64,000 bases of DNA from Halosimplex salinum (GTDB lineage Archaea; Halobacteriota; Halobacteria; Halobacteriales; Haloarculaceae), in contig NZ_QWGG01000009.1 of NCBI RefSeq assembly GCF_003730195.1, positions 62,001 through 126,000 of the forward strand, in the 5' to 3' direction. The notes under the pieces were generated by a model that searched no databases, was not told the origin of the DNA, and worked only from the letters and a program-made list of their open reading frames with translations. Positions 61,802-64,000 of this stretch are shown one piece after another. The position numbers and the translations under genes were made by a program. Within the stretch, counting starts at the first letter, position 1. Each line of letters opens with the position of its first letter.

Positions 61802-62212
61802 ATGACCGACACCCCCGCGGAGGAACTCGAGGACATCGACGACGACCTCGAGGACGTGAGCGAGGAGGTCGAGGCGATCGTCGACCACATCCAGGAGGGG
61901 GACGAGGGACGCCTCCGGATGGCGATCAAGTACGGCGCCGACGACCACGAGACGGTGTACGTCCGCGACGACGTCGCCGACCAGTTCAGCGAGGCCGAAC
62001 TCGAAGAGCGCGTCGAGACGCTCGTCATGAAGGGCCTCGGCGACCCCGCTCACGAGGGCGCGCTGTTCGACTTCGGGAACCTCGACGCGACCGTCCGCTG
62101 GTACGACGCCGTCGTCGTCGCCCACTTCCCCGTCGGCGAGTGGTCCGGCCTCGTCTTCACCTTCGACCGCGAGACCGAGTCGCTGGACGCGCTCGTGGAC
62201 CAGTTTTTCTAA
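61802..62212 (+). CDS. Small acidic cytoplasmic protein, unknown function
   Basis: The 136-residue protein starts MTDTPAEELEDIDDDLEDVS. A coiled-coil-like acidic head precedes EAIVDHIQEGDEGRLRMAIK, VYVRDDVADQFSEAELEERV and a C-terminal beta region (LDATVRWYDAVVVAHFPVGE). It has no signal or membrane part. Similar proteins of this size occur in haloarchaea without an assigned role. It is divergent from nth with 156 bp between. Its stop is followed directly by a structured palindromic element. Confidence 0.78.
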   Translation: MTDTPAEELEDIDDDLEDVSEEVEAIVDHIQEGDEGRLRMAIKYGADDHETVYVRDDVADQFSEAELEERVETLVMKGLGDPAHEGALFDFGNLDATVRWYDAVVVAHFPVGEWSGLVFTFDRETESLDALVDQFF

Positions 62213-62213
62213 A

Positions 62214-62342
62214 CCATGTTTTTCCCGCTCGGGTGTCCTCGCTCGCTTCGCTCACGGCGCTCCGCGCCGTTCGCATCGAGGTGCTCCCTGCGGTCGCACC
62301 TCGCGCCGCTCGCTGCGGGCACCTCTCGCGGCAAAAACATGG
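62214..62342. repeat. Structured intergenic element 1 (outer stem plus two hairpins)
   Basis: Outer arms at 62214-62228 (ccatgtttttcccgc) and 62328-62342 match in 14 of 15 positions. Inside are a hairpin acggcgc-tcc-gcgccgt (62254-62270) and a second, gaggtgc-11 nt-gcacctc (62278-62302). The element begins two bases after a stop codon. A related element at 63750-63851 has the same order of parts with compensatory stem changes. Confidence 0.7.
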
Positions 62343-62352
62343 GTGAAAAAGG

Positions 62353-62379
62353 CCGAATCCTCGCTCCGCTCGGATTCGG
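62353..62379. repeat. Hairpin with TCGCTCCGCTC loop
   Basis: Perfect 8-bp stem ccgaatcc/ggattcgg around the 11-nt loop tcgctccgctc. Confidence 0.8.
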
Positions 62380-62383
62380 TGAA

Positions 62384-62406
62384 CCGCGCTCGCTTCGCTC
62401 GCGCGG
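62384..62406. repeat. Hairpin with TCGCTTCGCTC loop
   Basis: Perfect 6-bp stem ccgcgc/gcgcgg around the 11-nt loop tcgcttcgctc, five bases after the preceding hairpin. Confidence 0.8.
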
Positions 62407-62623
62407 ATGCTCAATACAGCCCGCAGAGTGAACAATTGCGGTGGCGCGCGCTGACGAGCGTGCAGAGCGATAGCGAGGCCGCGACTCGAAGTCGTGCGAG
62501 GGATGACCGAGGGAGCGGAGCGACTGAGGGAATCGGCTGGGGTGGTGTGAGGCGCGGTGCTGTACAGTTGCTGTCCCTGGTGGACTGAAAGGGCGAGGCG
62601 GGCTCGCGCCGTAGGGGAGTCGT

Positions 62624-62666
62624 CTGAGCCGGCCCTATCCGAGCGGAGCGAGGATATCCGGCTCAG
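62624..62666. repeat. Long hairpin with the reverse-complement loop motif
   Basis: Outer stem ctgagccgg/ccggctcag (9 bp), a small bulge, inner stem tatcc/ggata and loop gagcggagcga, which is the reverse complement of the loop motif at 62361. Confidence 0.8.
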
Positions 62667-62791
62667 CGACCGCGAGCGGGCCGAGGGATTTCGGGGTTTG
62701 CTGTCGACTGCGGTCCCATTCACTCGATTTCTTTCCACACCAACTCAAACAGAACCAACTACTCAGCAAGCACGAAACGATCCACACACTC

Positions 62792-63559
62792 TCAAAAAGT
62801 CGTCCACGAGCGCGGGCCGAAGTCGTCGCCGCGCACACGGAACTCCGACCCCTCCTCGCCGGGTCGGACCTCGACTCTCGCGTCGAACAGCTGTTCGAGC
62901 ACGTCGTAGGTCCCGCGGTCGGCGCTCACGTCGAGGGTGAACGCGCCGACGCCGTCGACGCCCGCGATCCGCGTCGTGACGACGTGGAGGAACTGGTAGA
63001 CTCGCTTCAGATCCGTGTACATCAGGAGCGTCGACAGCGAGTGGAGGCCGACGCGCGGGTCGGCGACCGAATCGCGGTGCCAGTTCCGGAGGATGCCGCT
63101 CAACTCGATGCCGACGCCCGTCAGGTCGCCGGGGCTCGACACGACCCGCAGGTCCTCGATATCGCGCGTCCGGGACCGGCGCTCCCGCCCACTGGACCCC
63201 GTGCAGTCGACGAACGAGAGGCGCCACGCCTCCGGGTCGGGACGGGTGGCCGCGAACCACGTGGCCATCTTCCGGGCCGGCTTCTTCGTCGTGACGAACG
63301 CGCCCGTCTGCGATGCCGACCCGCCCACGAGGTCGAAGAGCAACCGTCGCTTGCCCGTCATCGGCGGCCCGACGACGAGGACGCTCGTCCCCGAGTCGAC
63401 CGCCTCCGCCCGGAGCGGGTCGACGTCGACCGCGTCCGGGTCCAGGTCCGTCTCAGCCGGATCGACGTCCGGGTCCGCCGGGTCGATGGCGTCCGCGGCG
63501 TCCGAATCGTCGGGACCGTCGGCGGTTTCCTCCCGGTCCGGGAACAGCCAGTTGCTCAC
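62792..63559 (-). CDS. RecA-superfamily ATPase-like regulatory protein
   Basis: A GTG start gives 255 residues beginning with SNWLFPDREETADGPDDSD, an Asp/Pro-rich segment (PADPDVDPAETDLDPDAVDV), then SVLVVGPPMTGKRRLLFDLV with a Walker A-like GPPMTGK. Later parts include GAFVTTKKPARKMATWF, LRVVSSPGDLTGVGIELSG, LLMYTDLKRVYQFLHVVTTR and a C-terminal VEVRPGEEGSEFRVRGDDFG. This matches the haloarchaeal KaiC/RecA-like family without clear enzymatic residues beyond the P-loop; members are thought to be signalling ATPases. The upstream frame to 63847 is arginine-rich and rejected. Confidence 0.78.
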   Translation of the reverse strand: MSNWLFPDREETADGPDDSDAADAIDPADPDVDPAETDLDPDAVDVDPLRAEAVDSGTSVLVVGPPMTGKRRLLFDLVGGSASQTGAFVTTKKPARKMATWFAATRPDPEAWRLSFVDCTGSSGRERRSRTRDIEDLRVVSSPGDLTGVGIELSGILRNWHRDSVADPRVGLHSLSTLLMYTDLKRVYQFLHVVTTRIAGVDGVGAFTLDVSADRGTYDVLEQLFDARVEVRPGEEGSEFRVRGDDFGPRSWTTF

Positions 63560-63668
63560 ACCACTTCTCTTGCGGCCTATACACCATGAACGTAGGGGAG
63601 TCGAAGTGGTATCTCGGCGAAAACAGATCCGAGCGACGACCGCTCTCAGCCCCCTACTCGACGCGCTC

Positions 63669-63740
63669 GCTCCCGGTCGACCTACTGCATGTACATGTAC
63701 TTGCGCTCGCCCATTCGGCCCTAGCCGTCGAACACAAACT
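63669..63740 (-). pseudogene. Duplicated, degenerate 3' end of the right-edge gene
   Basis: These 72 bp match 63887-63958 at 68 positions, an offset of 218 bp. On the minus strand they encode FVFDG-stop-GRMGERKYMYMQ-stop, equivalent to the intact copy except that Trp TGG has become TAG. The rest of the gene is absent, so it is a remnant of a partial tandem duplication. Confidence 0.8.
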
Positions 63741-63749
63741 GCAGCCACC

Positions 63750-63851
63750 TTTTTTCGCCTCGGGTCGCTCACGGCTCGCGGCTTCGCCGCTCGCCGTCGA
63801 GACGCTCCCGTCCGGTCGCGTCTCGCAGTTCGCGACCGCTCGGCCAAAAAA
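63750..63851. repeat. Structured intergenic element 2
   Basis: Outer T6/A6-based arms at 63750-63759 and 63842-63851 match in 9 of 10 positions. Inside are a hairpin acggc-tc-gcggc-ttc-gccgc-tc-gccgt (63771-63797) and a second, gagacgc-12 nt-gcgtctc (63799-63824) with a loop starting tccc and ending cggtc, as in element 1. It lies just beyond the stop of the leftward gene at the right edge. Confidence 0.7.
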
Positions 63852-63899
63852 TCTGGACCAAAAAAGCGACCTTGAGCGCCTGCGGCGCTCCCGGTCGAC

Positions 63900-64000
63900 C
63901 TACTGCATGTACATGTACTTGCGCTCGCCCATCCGGCCCCAGCCGTCGAAGACGAACTCGGCCTTCGGGGTGGTGAACTGGTCGATGTCGGCGGCGCCGG
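63900..64000 (-). CDS. Unidentified protein, C-terminal fragment cut by window edge
   Basis: Only the last 32 codons are present: residues ADIDQFTTPKAEFVFDG then WGRMGERKYMYMQ and a TAG stop. The fragment is conserved enough to have left a degenerate duplicate at 63669-63740. I do not recognise the protein. Read leftward, T-runs beyond the stop could terminate transcription. Confidence 0.6.
   Translation of the reverse strand, partial: GAADIDQFTTPKAEFVFDGWGRMGERKYMYMQ

Follow-up and report, generated by a model that had tools for sequence, protein, structure and literature searches.

Within the 64,000-nucleotide stretch of Halosimplex salinum DNA analysed here (the window), two intergenic elements share a folded, two-hairpin structure, which raises the question of what these elements are and how they came to lie at the ends of genes. 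A sequence-only reading had proposed that both directly follow a stop codon, that compensatory changes in their stems indicate selection on the folded form, and that they are either bidirectional terminators or REP-like mobile elements. Element 1 (62214-62342) and element 2 (about 63745-63856) were both present where it had placed them. MAFFT alignment and repeat searches recovered the blocks they have in common (the T-run/A-run outer arms, ctcgggt and tcgctcacgg), and the paired stems are as it had listed them. When compared with 200 shuffled sequences, each element folds better than all of them on each strand (z from -3.0 to -7.7), with the minus strand giving the better fold in both.

Element 1 has a palindromic core (CCATGTTTTT...AAAAACATGG) with no assigned strand and a long interior, and is of the type designated type 1 below. 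It starts one base past the TAA (62210-62212) of a plus-strand gene (61802-62212) for a 136-residue protein, which has orthologues in Halosimplex and Halorientalis and no Pfam match. A second U-tract (TTTTTCACCCATGTTTTTG, 62346-62350, minus strand) lies beside the element and is conserved among the type 1 copies compared. Upstream of it are two accessory hairpins (62351-62410, minus strand; GCATCC-hairpin-GGTTCACC-hairpin-GGCC) that are common to most type 1 copies. The convergent neighbour, a gene of the DUF7504 family, occupies 62795-63559 on the minus strand. The minus-strand fold is also the better one in most of 25 parsed type 1 cores, a preference to be read as a trend, with a few of these rows being the same palindrome on the other strand.

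Element 2 (63745-63856, minus strand) consists of a type 2 core (CCAGATTTTTTGGCCGAG...GAGGCGAAAAAAGGTGG) together with an inner module. The claim that a stop codon directly precedes each element thus holds for element 1 on the plus strand, whereas element 2 has no plus-strand gene before it. Element 2 instead lies downstream of the stop codon (63900-63902) of minus-strand mvaS, which extends beyond the window and encodes HMG-CoA synthase (Pfam PF01154 and PF08540), and a broken copy of the mvaS tail lies on its opposite side. The functional mvaS 3′ end (T, 63886-63958, minus strand) and the broken copy (T′, 63668-63740, minus strand; 73 bp) are 94.5% identical. Between the mvaS stop codon and the element there is a hairpin (63874-63890, minus strand) and then the U-tract that mvaS transcripts meet first (TTTTTT, 63860-63865, minus strand), an arrangement also seen in other type 2 copies. 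A sigma-70-type promoter and terminator scan, which is not apt for archaea, returned few sites overall and among them a stem and T run near mvaS (63864-63881, minus strand). The 73-bp duplication that brackets element 2, absent from the sequence-only reading, is the most informative feature of the locus.

Elements 1 and 2 are members of one haloarchaeal palindromic family found at the ends of transcription units, with the form CCANNTTTTT-stem-AAAAAGRTGG. The best copies have ACCATCTTTTTC-stem-CAAAAACATGGGTGAAAAAGGCC in common and very different stems. Searching the genome that contains the window at the DNA level returned about 70 pieces, and a covariance model (R1) placed the family at approximately 55 distinct sites there, with E-values down to 1.5e-23; this count is approximate, as 150 candidates were scored and both strands of one palindrome are listed. 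Matches were found in 91 of 96 genomes of the family Haloarculaceae and in 156 of 194 sampled genomes of the class Halobacteria, and no Rfam family matched the elements above its gathering score. In an alignment of 17 core copies, 38 cells had changes on both sides with pairing kept, compared with 12.4 in shuffled alignments (0 of 500 shuffles reached this value), which is also far above slid controls. The inner double-hairpin module, aligned from 14 copies, had 14 such cells compared with 4.4 (0 of 500). The compensatory changes noticed in the two window copies are therefore real family-wide, and the covariation supports selection on the folded form; further copies exist and their pairing is preserved.

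In element 1 the inner module lies at 62231-62322 (minus strand), and about a dozen other places carry the same module, which is also found inside several other elements of the genome. Much of the two-hairpin similarity between elements 1 and 2 is thus that of a portable module, and resemblance of the interior has to be kept apart from belonging to the outer family. The module (GCGAGGTGCGACCGNAGGGAGCACCTCG..GAACGG..CCGTGAG) is nested in the terminator elements and in a separate repeat of about 300 nt described below; its sites include 62231-62322 and 63760-63835 in the window and loci L002, L006, L008, L022, L036 and L053. The hairpin tips are C-GNA-G triloops with GA/GA flanks on one strand. 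L019, L025 and L178 have an additional hairpin module (GTGGTCTCG...CCGGTGG) that separates the palindrome from the outer U-tract and repeats GTGG at its ends, an arrangement that looks like hairpins nested step by step.

The family divides into two types by its right end. Type 1, which ends in CATGG or GATGG and includes element 1, is found where two genes converge or after a gene or tRNA, usually without flanking repeats; in most copies the U-tract adjoins a stop codon and in L114 and L116 it adjoins tRNA genes. Type 2, which ends in GGTGG and includes element 2, is typically flanked on its two sides by copies of its host gene's 3′ end (T-element-T′, hereafter T-E-T). When the left and right flanks of all collected copies were compared, seven type 2 copies in the window's own genome proved to be bracketed by direct repeats of 63-111 bp (94.5-98.4% identical), and these repeats are unique host DNA, namely the 3′ end of the neighbouring gene. 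Flanking repeats accompany 87 of 119 copies ending in GGTGG, 5 of 47 ending in GATGG and 1 of 215 random positions.

The association was followed across the genus, family and class using a type 2 covariance model (R2) built from six copies of the same genome, from which the gene-end duplication was excluded save for a few flanking bases, such that loci were picked by similarity of the element and not of its flanks. T-E-T repeats were present in 74 of the 104 copies parsed with this model, and the arrangement also occurs in other families of Halobacteria. The duplication is 26-227 bp long (median 69), the orientation of the element relative to the duplicated gene end is constant, and the host stop codon, where the frame could be reliably assigned, lies within T or no more than about 20 bases beyond its end. 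Different genera have the element at the same host genes. Within most genomes T and T′ are 0.94-1.00 identical, compared with 0.59-0.95 for the same gene end between genomes (in the groups shown), and tandem T(ET)n arrays are present in many genomes; either each pair of copies is therefore of recent origin, or recombination keeps the two alike. In several arrays (L184, L191) T outnumbers the element by one, and in some the last unit is an element and not T′. One locus in the same genome (L006, G000:C11:1027602) has a host gene with a new, shorter C-terminus (DEE-stop) before the element, and the ancestral acidic tail is found only in the downstream relic copy.

The junctions follow a rule. T′ starts at a nearly fixed distance past GGTGG, which is followed by the three bases that precede T in the gene (XYZ), then by extra bases and then by T′. 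XYZ is present in 58 of the 81 sites with room for it (72%), compared with 20% when the sites are shuffled. The net number of extra bases is +1 in 33 cases, +2 in 20, -2 in 3 and 0 in 2, and is never +3, so that T′ and T are hardly ever in the same frame; the first extra base is usually C (e.g. L155, L170, L178, L189 and L267). At the other side, 25 of 92 sites have a T that extends to the U-tract, the presumed transcript end. As a source of the +1/+2 signature, Cas9-like cutting three bases from a PAM was rejected because the orientation is wrong.

Comparison of relatives revealed that element and duplication vary together. At mvaS, both are present in this genome (G000), in G013 (85 bp, 100% identical) and in G089 (L156), while G056, G032, G079 and G068 have a single T and no element. 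At pheT, examined in 30 Haloarculaceae genomes, the element is present in eight; T′ is found in seven of these eight (the exception, L313, has the element and no T′) and in none of the 22 without the element. The pheT duplications begin at different points according to genome (TTCG|AG or GTCG|A), giving at least two insertion points. We take the pheT and mvaS pattern to reflect gains and losses that happened independently and more than once; clean losses could come about when T and T′ recombine. A short version of element 1 is present in H. carlsbadense (L092) and in G032; Halorientalis lacks the element, and there the two convergent genes directly adjoin each other. Recent spreading within a genome is not shown by these data: element identity within one genome is no greater than that between genomes at the same gene. 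The host genes that recur across genera could hold old insertions kept alike by recombination.

On balance, we lean towards the explanation that the elements are haloarchaeal U-tract terminators at the ends of transcription units and that members of the GGTGG subclass spread by inserting at new sites, with duplication of the end of the host unit in the process. In Haloferax volcanii, intergenic RNA 3′ ends are found at a T stretch ending at C, and a terminator of this kind gave 95% termination in vivo in a reporter (PMC7237163). The anatomy of the elements, taken together with H. volcanii, suggests that they probably end transcription at gene ends: the T runs, which are part of the search pattern, face both directions and adjoin stop codons or tRNAs. 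Read in gene orientation, the U-tract often comes before the main stem, which is thus not a terminator hairpin of the bacterial type. A transcript from either side would encounter a run of U (five or six) at most a few bases from a stop codon or small hairpin, the U-tract would end transcription as in archaeal U-tract termination, and the strong stem may block read-through or protect the RNA 3′ end.

For type 2, insertion would take place at the end of a transcription unit and duplicate its last 30-190 bases, giving the layout gene, T, hairpin and U-tract, element, T′. The upstream T would leave the gene complete and the downstream T′ would be a relic. Recombination between T and T′ would then produce T(ET)n arrays or clean loss, and homogenise the copies. 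Terminator and mobile element, between which the sequence-only reading had left the choice, are accordingly not alternatives, since U-tract terminator anatomy is accompanied by presence and absence between relatives; the strict REP sense of the second term does not stand, for the reasons given below. The repeats, together with presence and absence, are most simply explained by insertion accompanied by a long duplication, and it is insertion, as opposed to local tandem duplication, that we infer.

Local tandem duplication is the main rival. Here the elements would be old resident terminators without mobility, slippage at the palindrome would duplicate the gene end, and the last element of the resulting array would then be lost. 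Palindromes do promote slippage, T-E-T-E arrays exist, the host genes are recurrent, T ends exactly at the U-tract in the 25 sites mentioned above, and the arrays that end in an element are as this process predicts. The pheT element and T′, however, are nearly always present or absent together (7 of 8 against 0 of 22), the empty mvaS sites lack both alike, type 1 copies are equally palindromic yet rarely have T′ (5 of 47), and the arrays of L184 and L191 have one T more than elements. We regard this explanation as possible and rather unlikely.

Target-primed reverse transcription, by which a structured RNA is retroposed with an exact 3′ end and target duplications of varying length, would suit the precise right end, the variable length of T (26-227) and insertion at transcript ends; it is very improbable, as a reverse transcriptase (RVT_1) was found in none of 57 family genomes and was detected in three control genomes. 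Only a polymerase of another fold than RVT_1 would save this route. Slightly less credible still than retroposition is mobilisation in the manner of a REP/RAYT element, by a Y1 (TnpA-REP) transposase. Short intergenic palindromes in dozens per genome, with imperfect conserved stems, would be expected of such an element, but Y1_Tnp is present in only 0-2 copies per Halosimplex genome, none of nine Y1 loci has the element (by the pattern used), and the element 2 subclass has long flanking duplications. Moreover, Y1 was not found in G089 or G068 (the latter 71% complete), both of which carry the element, and these carriers largely refute the REP/RAYT reading. With no RVT_1 found in the 57 genomes and Y1 not found in all carriers, neither the standard SINE-like route nor that of REP/RAYT elements fits. 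That the elements are unrelated hairpins, alike by chance or through GC-rich composition, is effectively eliminated by the E-values (to 1.5e-23), shared unpaired bases, covariation above shuffles and fixed junctions, even though short GC hairpins are abundant in haloarchaeal intergenic DNA. The integron attC site, which is also stop-adjacent and folds on one strand, was considered and tentatively set aside: no cassette arrays were seen and gene ends would not be duplicated.

The elements resemble several known systems in part. They share with the archaeal U-tract terminators of H. volcanii a T run ending at C, an intergenic location and a position close behind stop codons or tRNA genes (PMC7237163). 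Those terminators are described as short motifs, whereas here the U-tract is within a long conserved family palindrome whose T and A runs pair, and type 2 has duplicated gene ends. MITEs are likewise short and non-coding, with inverted ends and target duplication. Their target duplications, however, are of a few bases and fixed length, while those of type 2 vary from 30 to 190 bases and are always a gene 3′ end. REP, BIME and REPIN sequences with RAYT are also multi-copy extragenic palindromes with proposed roles in termination or RNA stability, but the elements here have no tie to Y1, have long flanking duplications and have larger covarying stems; REPs are not known to have long flanking duplications. 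They are described as palindromes of 20-40 bp with a GTAG or CGTC tag at one end (PMC3733652), whereas the conserved ends found here are CCANN/NNTGG with T/A runs.

In size and in the absence of a transposase the closest match is to SMR-A and SMR-B of Haloquadratum (about 80-110 bp, terminal inverted repeats), which insert into PATEs, IS605 or other mobile elements and do so without duplicating the target (PMC3119063). By contrast, type 2 has duplications of 30-190 bp, and type 1, mostly without them, is at gene or tRNA ends. PATEs are haloarchaeal, palindrome-bearing and non-coding too, but have near-terminal IS605-type palindromes and no target duplication (PMC3119063). We could not match the duplication signature to any known mobile element, no description of T-E-T or of long target or gene-end duplication in haloarchaea was found in the open-licence literature searched, and neither an autonomous relative of the elements nor an enzyme for them was found.

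More tentatively, these may be a new mobile DNA element of Halobacteria that carries terminators, inserts at transcript ends and preserves the gene by duplicating the final 30-190 bases of the host unit, leaving a precise signature (GGTGG, XYZ, one or two extra bases, T′); an enzyme or repair pathway not described before, and coupled to the termination of transcription, would then have to be involved. If right, the 3′ ends of housekeeping genes such as mvaS and pheT have been repeatedly rebuilt across an archaeal class by a terminator-bearing repeat, which would provide a natural system for the evolution of archaeal transcription ends and point to an insertion or duplication process not known before. 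It would also account for partial gene copies behind intact genes and offer a concrete junction rule.

A separate structured repeat of about 300 nt is found at 62430-62720 (to about 62760) of the window and at loci L061-L090; this genome contains about 40 copies, which are 70-83% identical. It has invariant unpaired blocks (TCGGCTGGGGAGG, GGACTGAAAGGGCGAG and GGGCTTTC), 13 base pairs with changes on both sides and no Rfam match, and is on these features a strong candidate for a new non-coding RNA or RNA-like repeat. Just past it (in L079, L080, L071, L074, L086 and others) are tandem units of 57 nt. A coding role for these is unlikely, as the conserved block, inspected by eye, has no synonymous variation. 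Each unit consists of a constant AGCGAGCGGGTCGAGGGCTTTC and about 35 variable bases, with at least six copies at G000:C24:211917-212243, and the arrangement is iteron- or array-like.
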